Assembly: GCF_947493875.1 (NCBI RefSeq)
Contig: NZ_CANLSU010000006.1
Span: forward strand, 62,001-126,000
From: an uncultured Marinococcus sp.
GTDB taxonomy: Bacteria; Bacillota; Bacilli; Bacillales; Marinococcaceae
Reading direction: 5' to 3'
Length of the DNA stretch: 64,000 nt
Shown here piece by piece: positions 10,027 through 18,366 of the stretch. The notes beneath the pieces are model-generated. The model was given only the letters and a program-made list of their open reading frames with translations. It made no database searches and was not told the origin of the DNA. A program made the position numbers and the translations under genes. Within the stretch, counting starts at the first letter, position 1. Each line of letters begins with the position of its first letter.

Positions 10027-10797
10027 TTATATCTGCTCTGTACGCAGCCGGTCAGCTACTACCGCGACAAATTCACTGTTTGAAGGCTTATAGGGCAGAG
10101 CCCCGTCCTGACTCCAGCCGAACAGATCGGAAATCGCCTGCGTATGTCCGCGGTCCCATGCAACAACGATGGCATGTCTGAGCGCCCGTTCGACCCGGCT
10201 TGGCGTCGTCTGAAACTTTCTTGCAATCTCAGGGTACAGCTGCTTAGTGACTGCATTTATCATCTGCATATCCTCCATTACGAGCTTCACTGCTTCCTGC
10301 ATATATACATAGCCTTTAATATGGGAAGGAATGCCGACATATTGGATAATGTCTTTGATACGCTCTTCCATTGACTGGCGGCTGGCAGTTTTTTTCGGAG
10401 CCTCTTCCGTCAGCACCTGGGAATTTAGGCTTTCTCTGTGTACATCCCGGATATTTGCCATCAGCGCCTCCATATCAAATGGCTTTAAAACGTAATAAGC
10501 AGCCCCAAGATCCACTGCTTTTTTCGTTACATCCTCCTGGCCGAATGCAGTTAACATAATAACTTTCGTGTTAACAGTATGTTTATTTTTCAGTGCCGTT
10601 AATACAGAAAGCCCGTCCCGGTGCGGCATAATTATATCAAGGAGTAAGACCTCGGGCTGCTCCTGCTCCACCACCTCAAGTGCTTCTTCCCCGTTATGGG
10701 CTGTGCCTGCTATTTCCATGTCCTCCTGTTCTTCTATATGTTCGATTAATACTTCGACGAGTTCCTTGTTATCGTCGGCCACCACGACCCGTATCAT
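10027..10797 (-). CDS. spo0A: Response regulator Spo0A
   Basis: A 256-residue two-domain regulator. The receiver domain has the acidic pocket VADDN (8-9) and the phosphoacceptor Asp54 in LLLDIIMPH; Thr and Lys switch residues are in MLTAFG and YVLKPF. The C-terminal DNA-binding domain keeps the highly conserved helices, PSRVERALRHAIVVAWDRGH with SDLFGW and PSNSEFVAVVADRLR. All key residues look intact, so it should be functional. The partner genes for executing sporulation normally beside it are absent (no spoIVB between recN and spo0A). It may therefore control transition-state, stress or metabolic genes. Confidence 0.96.
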   Translation of the reverse strand: MIRVVVADDNKELVEVLIEHIEEQEDMEIAGTAHNGEEALEVVEQEQPEVLLLDIIMPHRDGLSVLTALKNKHTVNTKVIMLTAFGQEDVTKKAVDLGAAYYVLKPFDMEALMANIRDVHRESLNSQVLTEEAPKKTASRQSMEERIKDIIQYVGIPSHIKGYVYMQEAVKLVMEDMQMINAVTKQLYPEIARKFQTTPSRVERALRHAIVVAWDRGHTQAISDLFGWSQDGALPYKPSNSEFVAVVADRLRTEQI

Positions 10798-10854
10798 GTC
10801 TTCCCACTCCTTTTGCCGCAGGCTTTTGCTGCACTCCTTTTCCCTCTCAACATT

Positions 10855-10896
10855 ATTTTACCATAGCGTGTCGCATAGAAAAAGACAACTTCGACA
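10855..10896 (-). promoter_or_regulatory. Candidate spo0A promoter with a 0A box
   Basis: The minus strand has TGTCGAA, a perfect core 0A box, at 10890-10896. Just downstream are a poor -35 (TTTTTC, 10878-10883) and -10 TAAAAT (10855-10860) with 17-nt spacing. A 7-mer occurs often by chance and the -35 is weak, so this is a suggestion of Spo0A autoregulation only. Confidence 0.35.
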
Positions 10897-10907
10897 GTTG
10901 TCTTTTT
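10879..10907. terminator. Terminator downstream of recN
   Basis: A perfect 12-bp stem, AAAAAGACAACT/AGTTGTCTTTTT (10879-10890 with 10896-10907), with a 5-nt loop. The stem itself supplies a T run in either direction. It lies between recN and spo0A. Confidence 0.8.
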
Positions 10908-10930
10908 CAGGTGGACACATTCTATTGGGA

Positions 10931-12655
10931 CTACACATTGCTTTTAGCTTTCTCAGCCATTTCTAACAGCTCGGTCGCATTCTCTCTCGTTAGTGCCGTC
11001 ACTTCAACTCCGGAAATCATCCGGGCGATTTCATCAATCTTATAATCTGACGTTAACGGAGTGACAATCGTCTGTACTCTTTCTTCTTTTTCTTCTTTTT
11101 GAATATACAAATGACTGTCTGCCATCGCAGCAACCTGTGGCAGGTGGGTGATGCAAAGCACCTGGGAGCCTCTGGACACCAGATGGATTTTTTCCGCAAT
11201 CGCCTGGGCGACACGGCCGCTTACACCTGTATCAACCTCGTCAAAAATCAGGGAGGTAACGTGCTGGAAGCCGGAAAGAATCGTTTTCAATGCCAGCATG
11301 ATTCTGGAAATTTCCCCGCCGGACGCTACTTTTGCGAGCGGCTTTAAAGGCTCACCGGCATTGGCTGAAATAAGGAACTCGATCTTGTCCGCTCCCTTAT
11401 CATTAAATACCCACGTCTCCCCATCAGGTGTCTGATAGGTTTTCCCCCGGTTAAGAGGTGAGATCTGCACTTCCATCGTAGCCTTTTCCATGTACAGCGC
11501 CTGAAGCTCCTGCTGAACACTCCCGGCAAGCGAGTGGCCGGCCTGCCGACGCAAATCAGTTAATGTTTTAGCCTCAGCAATCAGCTCTTCCGCTGCCTGG
11601 GAGAGCGCCTGTTCATATTCGGCGATTCGCTCTTCTTTATTGGCGAGTGAATCGATTTCCTCTTCGATTTTGGAGGCATAAACTAAGATTTCTTCGACGG
11701 AATCTCCGTATTTTCTCTTCAGCTTATTCAGTTCATCGAGCCGGTTCTCCACTTCGTTTAATCTTTCAGGATCAAACGCCATGGAATCAGCTTTATCCCG
11801 GAGCGTAAACGTTGCCTCCTCCATCATGTAATAAGCTGAGCTGATTGACTCGGAAAGCTCTCCGAGATCTGTATCGATTTCTGCGGCTTCTTCTACGCTT
11901 GATACTGCCATTCCTGCCCAGTCAAGCGCCTTCCCTTCGCCGTACAGGTGGTCATAGGCCCCCCGGATTGCCTCGAACAGCTTTTCACTGTTAGCCAGAA
12001 TATGACGTTCCTTTTCCAGGTCTTCGTCCTCTCCCGGCTGCAGGCCGGCGGCTTCAATTTCCTGAAGCTGGTATTGAATAAAATCCAGCCGGTTTGCTGT
12101 TTCCTGATCACTTTCCTTCAGCTGCTTTAATTTTGACTGCAGCTGTCCAAAACGGTGGTAGCGCTTTTGATAATCTTCGAGTGCTTCTTCAAGCTCTGTT
12201 TTTCCGAACCGGTCGAGCATCTGCTGGTGACGCTCAGCATGCATCAGGTCCTGGTGCTCGTGCTGACCGTGGATATCTACGAGGCTGTGGCCGGTTTCTC
12301 TCAATACAGCAAGCGTTACTAATTTGCCGTTGATCCGGCAGATGCTTTTGCCCTGATGCGTAATGTCCCGGCGCAGAACGACCATGTCATCTTCAATATC
12401 AATGCCTGCGGCCTCTAATTTCTCAACTGCGGGGTGGTTATCCTCCAGGCGGAACAGCCCTTCCATTTCCGCCCGTTTTTCTCCGTGGCGCACATATTCA
12501 GCCGATCCCCTTCCACCGATAAGCAGGCCGATCGCATCAATGATGATGGATTTCCCGGCGCCCGTTTCACCGCTTAATACTGTTAAGCCATTTTCAAATG
12601 AAACGGTTAACTCCTCGATAATGGCAAAATTCTTGATGGAAATTTCTTCAAGCAT
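10931..12655 (-). CDS. recN: DNA repair protein RecN
   Basis: A 574-residue SMC-like ATPase. Walker A is GETGAGKSIIIDA near residue 30, followed by two long coiled-coil stretches around a central region. The C-terminal ABC signature region is KVASGGEISRIMLALK and Walker B is LIFDEVDTGVSGR, followed by the H-loop CITHLPQVAAMAD. It acts in early recombinational repair of double-strand breaks. It follows argR by 25 nt, the usual Firmicutes order. Confidence 0.96.
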   Translation of the reverse strand: MLEEISIKNFAIIEELTVSFENGLTVLSGETGAGKSIIIDAIGLLIGGRGSAEYVRHGEKRAEMEGLFRLEDNHPAVEKLEAAGIDIEDDMVVLRRDITHQGKSICRINGKLVTLAVLRETGHSLVDIHGQHEHQDLMHAERHQQMLDRFGKTELEEALEDYQKRYHRFGQLQSKLKQLKESDQETANRLDFIQYQLQEIEAAGLQPGEDEDLEKERHILANSEKLFEAIRGAYDHLYGEGKALDWAGMAVSSVEEAAEIDTDLGELSESISSAYYMMEEATFTLRDKADSMAFDPERLNEVENRLDELNKLKRKYGDSVEEILVYASKIEEEIDSLANKEERIAEYEQALSQAAEELIAEAKTLTDLRRQAGHSLAGSVQQELQALYMEKATMEVQISPLNRGKTYQTPDGETWVFNDKGADKIEFLISANAGEPLKPLAKVASGGEISRIMLALKTILSGFQHVTSLIFDEVDTGVSGRVAQAIAEKIHLVSRGSQVLCITHLPQVAAMADSHLYIQKEEKEERVQTIVTPLTSDYKIDEIARMISGVEVTALTRENATELLEMAEKAKSNV

Positions 12656-13275: not shown

Positions 13276-14101
13276 ACGAAGGTTCCAGTTTTTTCTTGAA
13301 TGACTCGTGTGCTTCCCGGACGACCGCCTCTATTCGCTCCTCCCCGGGAGGAGACGGCTTATCGCTTAATACCGATCCGTACAGCAGATATTCAATATTG
13401 CCGTCTCCCCCGGTAATCGGGGAAAAATCGAGCGCTTCCGGTGCTAAACCAACGCTTTCGGCTGACTGTATTGTTTTTGCCAGTACTTCCCTGTGCACCG
13501 ATGGGTCCCTGACGATTCCTTTTCTGCCTACCTTCTCCCGTCCCGCTTCAAACTGTGGCTTGATGAGTACGCAAAAGCCGGCGCCTTCGTCCAGCACCTG
13601 CGGCATCACTGGGAAAAGCTTTTCCAGGGAAATAAAGGATACATCAGCGATCAGCATCCCGGGCAGCCCACGCGACAGCTGATTTTTATCGAGGTACCTG
13701 AAATTCACTCTTTCCATTACCTCTACCCGTGGATCCTGGCGCAGCTTCCAGGCGAGCTGATTGTAGCCGACATCCAAAGCATATACCATAGAAGCTCCGT
13801 TTTGCAGCGCACAATCCGTGAAGCCTCCGGTGGAGGCCCCGACATCGAGTACCACGGCGTTCTGCAGCTCCAGCTGAAACGACTGAATGGCTTTTTCCAG
13901 CTTTAAACCGCCGCGGCTGACGTATGGCATCTGTTTGCCCTTCAGGCGCAAAGCTGCCTCATCACTGATTTTTGTCCCGGGCTTGTCCACCACTTCATCA
14001 TCTGCCAGTACAAGACCTGCCATGATTGCCCGTTTGGCTTTTTCCCGGGAATCAAACAGTCCCTTCTGCACTACCAGCGTATCAATTCGTTCTTTATTCA
14101 T
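13274..14101 (-). CDS. tlyA: TlyA family rRNA methyltransferase/hemolysin-like (YqxC)
   Basis: A 275-residue protein with an N-terminal S4 RNA-binding domain ([20 protein letters not shown]) and an FtsJ-like SAM methyltransferase domain ([20 protein letters not shown] at ~85-105, then DVSFISLEK). TlyA proteins 2'-O-methylate rRNA. Its ATG overlaps the dxs TGA as ATGA, so the two are translationally coupled. The position between dxs and argR matches yqxC. Confidence 0.92.
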
Positions 14102-15996
14102 CCCCGGATATTTGTTCTTTCTTTACTGGTCATCGCCGTCACTTTTTCCACTACTTTCTCTGGAGTGAGACCCAGTTCCTCATAAAGCTCCGGCACGCTG
14201 CCGTGCTCGACGTAGTAGTCAGCAATGCCCATCCGGCGGACTGGAAGCGAGTCATGCTCATGGTCGGCCATGTATTCAAGCACTGCACTTCCAAAGCTTC
14301 CCTTTAGTGCTGCTTCTTCCACTGTCAGTACTGGTTTGCCTTCTTCAGCTAATTCTTCAAGCATTGCGTCGTCAAGCGGCTTGGCTGAACGGGCGTTAAC
14401 GATACGGACACTGGTTCCCTGTCCGCTTAACTCGGCAGCTGCCTCCTCTACGATCGGAAGCATTGTCCCAAACGAGAGGATCGTACAGTCTGTGCCTTCC
14501 CGGACGATTTCCCATTTGCCGTAAGGAATCATTTGAAACTCTTCGTCCATCTCCACCCCGAGCCCGTTACCGCGCGGATAGCGGACGGCTGTTGGGCCAT
14601 CGTCATTATGAAAAGCCGAATACAGCATGTGCTGCAGTTCATTTTCATCCTTTGGCATCAGTATTTTCATATTTGGGAGGTGCCGCAGGTATGCAATATC
14701 AAAAACGCCCTGGTGCGTCTCCCCGTCAGCACCGACGAGGCCTGCACGGTCGATCCCAAAGAGCACATTCAGATTCTGGCGGCAGACGTCATGCACCAGC
14801 TGGTCGTATCCCCGCTGCAAAAACGTGGAGTACACCCCGAATACCGGCTTCATTCCCTGCGTCGCAAGCGCACCTGACATTGTCGTGGCGTGCTGTTCAG
14901 CGATACCTACGTCAAACATGCGATCCGGAAATTTTTCCGCAAACGTGTCGAGCTTCGTGCCACCGGCCATAGCAGCGGTCACAGCCACAAGACGGGAATC
15001 CATTTCTGCTATTTTTTGCAGGGTATTGCTGAAGACAGCACTGTAGGCAGGCGCGGCTGCCGGTTTTTTAATCACTTCACCGGATTCGATCTTATATGGT
15101 CCAAGTCCGTGCCAGGTCCCTTTAGCATCGTTTTCCGCCGGTGTGTAGCCTTTGCCTTTTTTGGACAGCACATGCACAATCACCGGGCCGTTAGTGTCTC
15201 TGGCGTATTTAATATTGGCATGCAGATCATCAAGATCATGGCCATCGACCGGGCCGAGATACGTAAATCCAAGCTCTTCAAAAAACATGCCGGACAGAAC
15301 CATCTGCTTCATGCTGTCTTTCATCCGGTCGGCGTAGGAAGCAAGCTTCGAGCCGAACGCAGGAATTCTGCGCAGCATATGGTCGACGTCTTCTTTCGTT
15401 CTTCGGTAAGTACCGGCTGTGCGAATGCGGCCGAGCATACTGTGAAGCGCCCCTACGTTCGGAGAAATAGACATTTCATTGTCGTTTAGAATAATAGTGA
15501 CATCCGTCTGTTCATGACCGATATGGTTAAGTGCTTCGAGGGCCATGCCTCCGGTAAGAGCACCGTCACCAATGATAGCGGCAACTTTGGCGTCCTCGCC
15601 CTTCAGCTGATTTGCAAGCGCCATTCCTTCTGCTGCGGACAGTGACGTTGAGCTGTGGCCGGTCTCCCATACGTCATGTTCACTTTCTGAACGTTTAGGG
15701 AAGCCGCAAAGCCCCTGGTACTGGCGCAGTGAATCAAAGCGATCCGCACGTCCGGTTAAGATTTTATGCACGTATGACTGGTGCCCAACGTCCCAGATAA
15801 GTTTATCTTTTGGTGTATTGTACAGCTGGTGAAGGGTGAGCGTTAATTCCACTACTCCGAGATTGGGACCGAGATGACCACCGGTAACGGATAATTTTTC
15901 AATCAGGAACGCCCGTATATCTTCACCCAGCGCTTTTAGTTCTTTATCATTGTACTGCTTCATGAATCCAGGGTCTTGGATCGTTTCCAGGTTCAT
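14098..15996 (-). CDS. dxs: 1-Deoxy-D-xylulose-5-phosphate synthase
   Basis: A 632-residue TPP enzyme that condenses pyruvate and glyceraldehyde 3-phosphate in the first step of the MEP isoprenoid pathway. The N-terminal part has [17 protein letters not shown] and the TPP site [18 protein letters not shown] ending in NDNEMS. The central part has [13 protein letters not shown], and the transketolase C domain closes the protein. It starts 10 nt after oapA with a GGGGG site, so it shares a transcript with the OLE/oapA region. Confidence 0.97.
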
Positions 15997-16006
15997 TTGA
16001 ATCCCC

Positions 16007-16618
16007 CTACCTGCTATGTTTTTCTGTTGATGATTTCCATCTTCTTTTCTTTGGAATTAACTTAATTTTTAACTTATTCTCAATAAAATACAAGATTCTT
16101 CCTACCTGAAAAACAATATTGTTCGCGTACGTGATCGCAAATGTTTTCCCAAGTGCTTTTCCGCTGACTGTGAGCGCTGCCACGACAGCTGTGAATATAG
16201 TACTCAGAATCAGCTGGCCGTTGGAGCTGTTATTTGTCCCAATCGTCATACCAAGCTGCACGACAACGGCCGAGCTGGCCGTCCCACTCACAACCCCGCT
16301 GATATCACCGATCACGTCGGCACAAAAGTTCGCGACCCGGTCGGCATTCCTCTGAATAAATACACTGTGGGAAGCCCCCGGCACTTTTTTGGCAGCCATG
16401 GCATTGAACGGCCGTGGCTTTGCCGCGGTGGCAGCTACGCCGATCACGTCAAAGATTACACCGGTAAATACGATGATCAGTACGACGACCATGCCGATCG
16501 CCCAGCCAACTCCCGAAAGCACTGCTGTCGAGACTACTGAGAAGATTGCTGCAAGTATCAGGGTGACAAACCCAATTAACGTACTCCACTGGAGCGATTT
16601 TCTCCATAAATTATTCAT
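16007..16618 (-). CDS. oapA: OLE RNA-associated membrane protein OapA
   Basis: A ~203-residue integral membrane protein with about four hydrophobic segments: near the N-terminus [18 protein letters not shown], then [20 protein letters not shown], and two more in the second half including [18 protein letters not shown]. It ends with a very basic tail ([14 protein letters not shown]). Size, topology and position between the OLE RNA and dxs match OapA of Bacillus halodurans, which binds OLE RNA and carries it to the membrane. Similarity to CNNM/CorB-type transporter domains has been noted for this family, and a link to Mg2+ homeostasis is proposed. ATG at 16618 has a GGTGAT site; a GTG two codons earlier is an alternative. 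Confidence 0.9.
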
Positions 16619-16763
16619 GTTCACTTATCACCAAATTCTTTGTATTTATCATAACGTACATCTCATTCTTTTAATATCATTTTATGCCCTGGCCTGATTG
16701 TTTATACCCTAAATAACGTACATTCAAGCTTTTTTCCTTTCCTCACCGTTTAACACCCGCGTA

Positions 16764-16790
16764 AAAGAAAGAAGCGCCTCCCAGCGCTTC
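16764..16790 (-). terminator. Intrinsic terminator of OLE RNA
   Basis: Stem GAAGCGC/GCGCTTC (16771-16777 with 16784-16790) followed by TTTCTTTT on the minus strand, 20 nt past the OLE terminal helix. It separates OLE from oapA, so oapA would need read-through or its own promoter. Confidence 0.75.
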
Positions 16791-16810
16791 TTCAACTGCT
16801 TATGTATAAA

Positions 16811-17423
16811 GTTGAATGGTCGCCCGGAGCGTAAACCTTGTGGCTTAGGTCCAGTAGGATTTCCCACCAGGCAGCCAATTCGTCGCCGAATCGGTGGTTT
16901 CCCTTTAAGGCCTGGTGAACGCCGTCACCGGCAGTTCGACTGAATTACCACTCAGACCACACTGCAATCCACTCCGGACGTGCGTCAAACAGCCTAGGAG
17001 TTTTCCCCGGCAGTTCCGTGCCACTTTCTTATCCTCTTTTGCAGAACAGGTTTCAGTTGTTGGGTCCCATACCAGTTGGCCTACCGGTATGATACCAATT
17101 GAACAACCTCCCCGCTGTTCCACTCAAGGCAGGCTACGCTGTTGAAAGGCCTTCCCTTGGCCTTTGCAACAGGTCTTACCGCAGCATGCACCCGGGACGG
17201 TATCCGTCTTCCAGGATGACCCGGATGCATCACCGCAGCCTCCACGGCGAAAGGGTTCGCGCCCACATGCCATTGTGGATCGCCCTTACGCCTTAACTCC
17301 CAGCACCGACCCAGGGCTGGGCGCCGCAAGCCGATGCCAGGAACTTCATCGATGTGCCCTTCAGCGGATTTTTAGGCCCGCCTTCGAAAATGGAGAACCG
17401 ACTAGGATACTGCACCATTCAAC
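16811..17423 (-). ncRNA. ole: OLE RNA (ornate, large, extremophilic RNA)
   Basis: A 613-nt region without a credible ORF, between ispA and oapA. Its ends pair: GTTGAATGGT at the 5' end with ACCATTCAAC at the 3' end, on the minus strand. The 5' part contains the very conserved block GGGCCTAAAAATCCGCTGAA (about 17360-17379) and many GC-rich helices, for example GCCAAGGGAAGGC. The 3' part carries CCAGGCCTT and GCCTGGTGG segments. Length, locus (nusB-folD-xse-ispA upstream, oapA-dxs downstream) and these blocks match OLE RNA of extremophilic Firmicutes. In B. halodurans it forms a membrane ribonucleoprotein with OapA that protects against short-chain alcohols and cold and affects Mg2+ tolerance. 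The molecular activity is unknown. Confidence 0.93.
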
Positions 17424-17434
17424 TTTTCAAAATT

Positions 17435-17478: not shown

Positions 17479-18366
17479 TTAGTGGTTACGCTGTCCAATA
17501 TATTGAAGAAACGCTGTTAAAAGAGACGTATCTACTGTCATGCGCTCCAGCACGTTTTCTGCCTGTTCAATATGGTGGGCAAGTTTCTCTTTTGCCCCTC
17601 CCAGTGTCAGCAGTTTTGGATAGGTGCTTTTTTCTTTCGTTTCATCGCTTCCAGAGGATTTCCCCATCTCCTCAAGAGATCCTTCGACATCCAGAATGTC
17701 ATCCTTGATTTGAAAAACGAGACCGAGCTCCCGGCCAAACGCCCGCCAGTTTTCCACATCTTCGTCTGCCGCTTCTGCTATTAACGCTCCGGAGACCACG
17801 GCAAAGGTCAAAAGATCTCCCGTTTTGTGATGATGAATGTATTCGAGCTCCTCCAGGTTAAGGCTCTGCTTCTCCCCTTCGAGGTCGGCCATCTGACCGC
17901 CGACCATGCCTTCGCTCCCGGAAGCAGCAGCCAGCTCCTGTACCAGCTGCAGTCTGGCAGCGGCAGAAGCAGGCCGTTTTGCTTCCACAATCAAGGAAAA
18001 GGCTGTCGTCTGCAGGGCGTCGCCGGCTAAGATGGCAGCGGCCTCCCCGAATTTTTTGTGATTCGTCGGCTGTCCCCGGCGCCAGTCATCATCGTCCATC
18101 GACGGCAGATCATCATGCACGAGTGAATACGTATGAATCAGCTCCACTGCAGAGGCAGCCGGAAGATCCTCTTCTTTCACCGGGCGGTAGCATTGAAGCA
18201 CGGCCAGTGAAAGCAGCGGCCTCACACGTTTTCCTCCCGCTTCAAGGGAGTAAAGCATTGCATCCTTCAGCGTCTCCGGCGTTTTCAATGCACCTACACG
18301 GTCAGTTAAAGCGCGGTCGACAGACGGCCGGTATGTATCGAAAAAATGTTGGAGCTCCCCACTCAT
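17479..18366 (-). CDS. ispA: Farnesyl diphosphate synthase (polyprenyl synthetase)
   Basis: A 295-residue prenyltransferase. The first aspartate-rich motif is in [15 protein letters not shown] (about 80-95) and the second is [23 protein letters not shown] marks the diphosphate-binding basic patch. It makes geranyl/farnesyl diphosphate from IPP and DMAPP. Its ATG overlaps the xseB stop (ATGA). The OLE RNA starts about 55 nt downstream. Confidence 0.95.

Follow-up and report, generated by a model that had tools for sequence, protein, structure and literature searches.

Between an ispA and an oapA gene in the window (as we call the whole 64,000-nt stretch of DNA from an uncultured Marinococcus sp. 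that was analyzed) lies a long non-coding RNA gene of the OLE family, and the question that it raises is whether this RNA can be made as a unit of its own and how its 3′ end would then be formed. A sequence-only reading of the locus had proposed OLE at 16811..17423. The interval is indeed OLE, although the match obtained with cmscan and the Rfam 15 model RF01071 is longer (17434-16800) and lies on the minus strand, which had been left unstated. Run in this way, the covariance-model check gave 502.4 bits (E value 2e-144), far over the gathering cut-off of 50, and covered positions 1-616 of the 616 in the model, with 20 positions flagged as non-standard pairs along the entire alignment. The OLE feature (16800..17434) is the single match in a search of the whole genome (G000; 3.27 Mb, 34 contigs), and the region folds with a z score of -6.4 relative to 20 shuffles. 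The neighborhood is also as had been described, since ORFs and comparisons with NCBIfam models and OapA sequences agree on a minus-strand order of ispA (farnesyl diphosphate synthase, 17479..18366; FPPsyn, 393 bits, cut-off 275), OLE, oapA (OLE-associated protein A, 203 aa, 16007..16618 with its ATG at 16618) and the isoprenoid gene dxs (14098..15996; TIGR00204, 889 bits, cut-off 466). The OLE family is known and the locus is at most another member of it. It is very probably a canonical full-length OLE RNA gene forming a separate unit in Marinococcus, for which we infer transcription, RNP assembly and a role in stress from sequence. The presence of OLE had further been said to fit a halophilic or alkaliphilic organism; it does, but as weak evidence, because OLE is present in 284 of the 398 genomes sampled from the phylum.

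OapA of the window had no match to an NCBIfam model at an E value of 0.001 and is recognized by alignment and by its place in OLE-oapA loci, being 50-99% identical to 24 relatives in an alignment that drew on 25 of 31 loci; an OLE match was also present in every one of the 80 named loci retrieved with OapA as query, which represent the best 80 of 530 matches. Candidates for OapC, an 84 aa gene of the L7Ae family (L203), and for OapB, a 102 aa KOW gene (L207), were proposed from Pfam matches and gene neighbors. The neighbors of the OapC candidate are presumably rpoC-like and rpsL-like genes, and the gene after the OapB candidate is one that we take to be infA-like. Residues D101 and D105 of the window's OapA are invariant in the 25 aligned sequences and, by their spacing, are taken to be D100/D104, the residues changed in the PM1 mutant of Halalkalibacterium halodurans (PMC9723947). 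In that species OLE, a free RNA of ~630 nt, forms a membrane RNP with the membrane protein OapA, depends on OapB and OapC as well, and is required under ethanol, cold and Mg2+ stress (PMC9723947).

Comparison with relatives used top-scoring rather than random loci, taken from 30 of 42, 30 of 56 and 30 of 284 OLE-positive genomes together with the window's own locus, to which the loci from the best 80 of the 530 OapA matches were added. Another 30 loci, drawn from the phylum's other classes, were analyzed apart, and removal of seven loci with identical OLE left 134 distinct loci out of 141. One record in this set, titled Pseudomonas sp. ISL-84 (L090), has OLE-oapA flanks much like those of Bacillus sp. 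J33 (L088), and probably its label is wrong or the assembly is mixed.

A promoter with a 17-nt spacer had been claimed for the OLE gene, and such a sigma-A type promoter is present at 17463-17435 on the minus strand (TTTTCA-17-TGCTAAAAT), beginning 15 nt beyond position 17479, where the ispA stop codon ends. Its hexamers TTTTCA and TAAAAT match the consensus at 9 of 12 positions, and a TG one base ahead of the latter (TG-C-TAAAAT) makes it an extended -10. By scan alone it is unremarkable, five sites having been found in 3 kb against 2.8 expected, and it is the comparison across relatives that makes it convincing. Defined as TG, one base and a TATAAT allowed a single mismatch, an extended -10 occurs no more than 70 nt upstream of OLE in 131 of the 134 distinct loci, far above 100 shuffles (mean 9.8, maximum 17), and thus an OLE-specific promoter appears to be common to the sampled loci. 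When a -35 with at least four of six matches was required as well, 93 of 134 loci retained the signal (shuffled mean 0.98, maximum 5). From the end of the -10 to the GGT closing the terminal helix, the median distance is 18 nt in the 134 loci, and the promoter hexamers are identical in all four Marinococcus genomes. The exact TGNTATAAT occurs in 89 of 134 loci, and the window's TAAAAT, one base off, would make for a weaker promoter than most. The earlier view of OLE as an RNA that could be produced independently of the isoprenoid operon is supported by the conserved promoter; it is not a new claim, since an own promoter has already been published for OLE of H. halodurans (PMC9723947, citing a 2007 paper).

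The two ends of the RNA had been noted to pair, and the ten end bases of 16811-17423, which spans GTTGAATGGT to ACCATTCAAC, are perfectly complementary. The full terminal helix has 13 pairs, formed by a 5′ arm at 17414..17426 (AAAGTTGAATGGT) and a 3′ arm at 16808..16820 (ACCATTCAACTTT), although these positions are unpaired in the structure line of RF01071. Across the 134 loci, covariation at positions 4-9, counted outward, and at positions 0 and 1 exceeded all 300 shuffles, position 9 by a small margin (68 vs 66), and the inner four positions are nearly unvarying. Because the 3′ register was picked for maximal pairing, the covariation count is biased towards pairing. The spread of compensating pair types nevertheless argues that the helix is real, position 7 occurring as G-C, T-A, C-G and A-T.

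Downstream of the helix, the terminator that had been reported before oapA was recovered as a hairpin of 11 pairs (16793-16768 on the minus strand, -15.8 kcal/mol) followed by a T-rich tail that reaches 16762. This signal (16762..16793) was not listed by a consensus scan and is common to the four Marinococcus genomes. The predicted minimum-energy structure holds the terminal helix, an unpaired linker and the terminator together. Terminator-like hairpins 3′ of OLE were counted in 15 of 134 loci, a count made without shuffled control and including some weak tails, yet in all four Marinococcus genomes; such a hairpin precedes an adjoining oapA in 13 of 132 loci (L118 and L137, with no oapA downstream, excluded). 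Judging from these loci, OLE is seldom separated from oapA by a terminator outside Marinococcus. The gap between ole and oapA is 175-183 nt in Marinococcus and 21-100 nt in 117 of 132 loci.

What lies in the linker emerged from a listing of OLE 3′ flanks. The hexamer TACATA, at 16801..16806 on the minus strand, corresponds to UACAUA in the RNA, matches the hexamer at which B. subtilis EndoA/MazF cuts (PMC11780869) and is unpaired between helix and terminator in both the minimum-energy and the centroid fold; the predicted cut would fall between 16806 and 16805. TACATA is found within 45 nt past the terminal helix in 110 of the 134 loci (200 shuffles: mean 5.65, maximum 13), and the pentamer TACAT in 114 (mean 15.75, maximum 28). 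Where TACAT is present, it is followed by A in 111 of 114 loci, the bases on either side of the motif are near background, and in 92 of the 114 the motif begins 0-8 nt after the helix. Grouping OLE at 90% identity gave 99 clusters, of which 79 have TACATA in some member and 77 in every member. The H. halodurans RNA also carries UACAUA, as read from the reverse primer KH014 of the construct OLE1-637 (TCATACATACGCAGTCGGAACG in sense direction; PMC12054373).

Controls were uniformly low. The reverse complement of TACATA occurs in the same flank in two of 134 loci, and TACATA itself in the 45 nt upstream of OLE in one of 134, in the first 48 nt of oapA in three of 132 and in the 48 nt past the oapA stop in one of 131; elsewhere in the loci there are 260 copies per 774,770 nt, or 0.016 per 48 nt. 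After RNase P RNA of relatives it was found in none of 30 loci, which came from 41 genomes with or without OLE and of which 29 had the exact conserved 3′ end and the remaining one a single changed base. Two other readings of the motif were rejected: as an antisense promoter, given unconserved preceding bases and the two flanks with the reverse complement, and as an element tied to the start of oapA, from which its distance varies between 3 and 218 nt.

Among the 24 loci without TACATA, the variant TACTTA is present in the flank of four (mean 0.5 in 300 shuffles, all of them below four). It was looked for post hoc, prompted by a paper on MazF of Symbiobacterium thermophilum, an enzyme that cuts UACAUA, more weakly UACUUA and UACAUC, and slightly three others (PMC10893535). 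CACATA, a form not listed among the substrates cut in the portion of that paper drawn on here, is found in three of the 24 (shuffled mean 0.54). One-mismatch hexamers near the helix, taken together, are not clearly enriched in these loci (8 of 24, shuffled mean 4.6, reached by 17 of 300 shuffles). Nor is the OLE body clearly depleted of the hexamer (4 copies vs 8.4 expected, shuffles 3-17); TACAT is rarer there than expected (22 vs 38), but pentamers of the same composition are equally rare.

Among enzymes of the MazF type, those from B. subtilis, B. anthracis, S. aureus and S. equorum are reported to cut UACAU (PMC5408214). The genome of the window encodes an EndoA orthologue: there is one match to the MazF family (G000:C3:339891-340211, PF02452, 127 bits), which matches EndoA of PDB 4mdx over residues 17-131 with 195 bits, and a MazE-like ORF adjoins the gene, its 20 bits being far under the curated cut-off of 108. 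The situation thus resembles that in B. subtilis in both the enzyme and the identical hexamer. A MazF match (E value of at most 0.001) was present in 48 of the 49 named-locus genomes searched, out of 80 named loci, the lone miss (L046, a MAG) having TACATA nonetheless, and in 60 of another 62 genomes (32 of 32 Bacilli, 28 of 30 non-Bacilli), the exceptions G517 and G602 being without TACATA as well. With EndoA-like genes so near to universal in the tested genomes, correlating their presence or absence with that of TACATA is uninformative. In one genome (G146), the EndoA-like gene is in two pieces around a TAG stop, though its locus (L131) keeps TACATA.

These features suggest the following route. 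RNA polymerase would start at the extended -10 promoter in the gap between ispA and oapA, near 17427, and produce a transcript whose ends close into the terminal helix. In Marinococcus, much of the transcription would stop at the terminator before oapA, making OLE a separate transcription unit, and the RNA would either end at the stop near 16762 (~666 nt) or be cut at U^ACAUA, giving a predicted OLE RNA of ~622 nt (16806..17427, minus strand, from the start region expected from the -10 position to the U before the cut). Under stress, free EndoA (MazF) would cut U^ACAUA just past the helix and trim OLE; in species without the terminator the same cut would also sever OLE from the oapA message. 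The RNA presumably acts in a membrane RNP with OapA, OapB and OapC, as in H. halodurans. With OLE of that species the locus shares the full-length family match, the order of ole and oapA, the own promoter, a length of ~620-630 nt and UACAUA near the 3′ end, and it differs in the terminator between ole and oapA.

The occurrence of TACATA in 110 of 134 loci against 0-3 in the control sets, the EndoA orthologue and the specificity of the enzyme for the hexamer favor the EndoA step. Against it stand the 24 loci that lack TACATA despite EndoA-like genes nearly everywhere; the other classes of the phylum, where 25 of 30 loci lack the hexamer although 28 of 30 genomes have a MazF match; the L046 genome, a MAG, which has TACATA but in which no MazF match was found; and the lack of clear depletion of the hexamer in the OLE body. 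Furthermore, U/ACAUA cleavage is absent in the wild-type B. subtilis data in the part of the report considered here (PMC11780869), and the full-length H. halodurans construct OLE1-637 runs 13 nt past the hexamer (PMC12054373). On balance, we see the two sides as evenly weighted on whether EndoA cuts OLE transcripts at UACAUA under stress. The broader proposal, that OLE may be a conserved dedicated EndoA (MazF) substrate in Bacilli that wires the toxin–antitoxin module to the OLE stress particle, has in our judgment about an even chance of being right. If it is, a non-coding RNA would have kept a MazF site at a constant position. The 3′ end of H. halodurans OLE is processed (PMC11332333), no nuclease established for this processing was found in the literature examined, and the conserved hexamer names a candidate that would link two stress systems. 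A limited literature search yielded no description of MazF or EndoA acting on OLE RNA and, as far as these searches show, the conserved EndoA hexamer at the OLE 3′ end had not been reported.

A possible but more doubtful explanation is that UACAUA is no nuclease site and belongs to mature OLE as a conserved, single-stranded tail that binds an RNP protein or is needed for folding. This would agree with the anchoring of the motif to the terminal helix rather than to oapA, with its inclusion in the full-length H. halodurans construct (PMC12054373), with its retention in L137, where no oapA follows and a terminator-like hairpin comes after it, and with the presence of TACATA in only 5 of the 30 loci from other classes despite MazF-like genes there. 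Against a tail stand the exact agreement with the EndoA hexamer, sixth base included, amid variable neighbors, and the TACTTA seen in four of the loci that lack TACATA, UACUUA being a weaker substrate of the Symbiobacterium enzyme (PMC10893535). It is unlikely that the 3′ end is made by termination (in Marinococcus), by general exonucleases or by RNase P and RNase PH alone, with UACAUA playing no role. The terminator at 16793-16762 and the discussion of RNase P cleavage and possible RNase PH processing of OLE (PMC11332333) speak for this, but it leaves unexplained a hexamer that all members of 77 of the 99 clusters share amid unconserved flanks. The published size of ~630 nt in H. halodurans does not separate a stop at the terminator from a cut at UACAUA. 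That OLE is chiefly a cis-acting leader of oapA rather than a free RNA is most improbable, because, although oapA lies within 226 nt downstream of ole in 132 of 134 loci, a terminator separates the two in Marinococcus, L118 and L137 have OLE without oapA in the locus, followed by a terminator-like hairpin, and an OapA-like gene elsewhere in the genome, and a free ~630-nt RNA in an RNP with OapA has been published for H. halodurans (PMC9723947).

Marinococcus thus offers what seems, from its sequence, to be a natural case of uncoupled ole and oapA transcription. A refolding switch in this interval, in which TTCAAC would pair with a downstream GTTGAA overlapping a terminator arm, was considered from a local fold and dropped because the full-length fold favors the terminal helix plus the terminator; both motifs are invariant in the four Marinococcus genomes and so show no covariation. 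Between the terminator and oapA, ATGTACGTTAT occurs twice (16723-16713 and 16661-16651), the copy closer to oapA being invariant in the four genomes and the other not.

Past dxs, the minus strand carries what we take to be tlyA-, argR-, recN- and spo0A-like genes. The recN-like gene is followed directly by the spo0A-like gene (window 10027-12655), without spoIVB between them; in B. subtilis spoIVB lies between recN and spo0A. A search of the genome for SpoIVB (PF05580) gave no match, though OLE is kept, and OLE has been reported to correlate with sporulation genes (PMC11332333). Five tRNA genes (Asn, Met, His, Met, Ser) are clustered on the minus strand at 62348-61875. Two glycine riboswitch aptamers lie side by side at 32156-31977, also on the minus strand, upstream of a gene (29458-27941) that presumably encodes a protein resembling a glycine dehydrogenase subunit.
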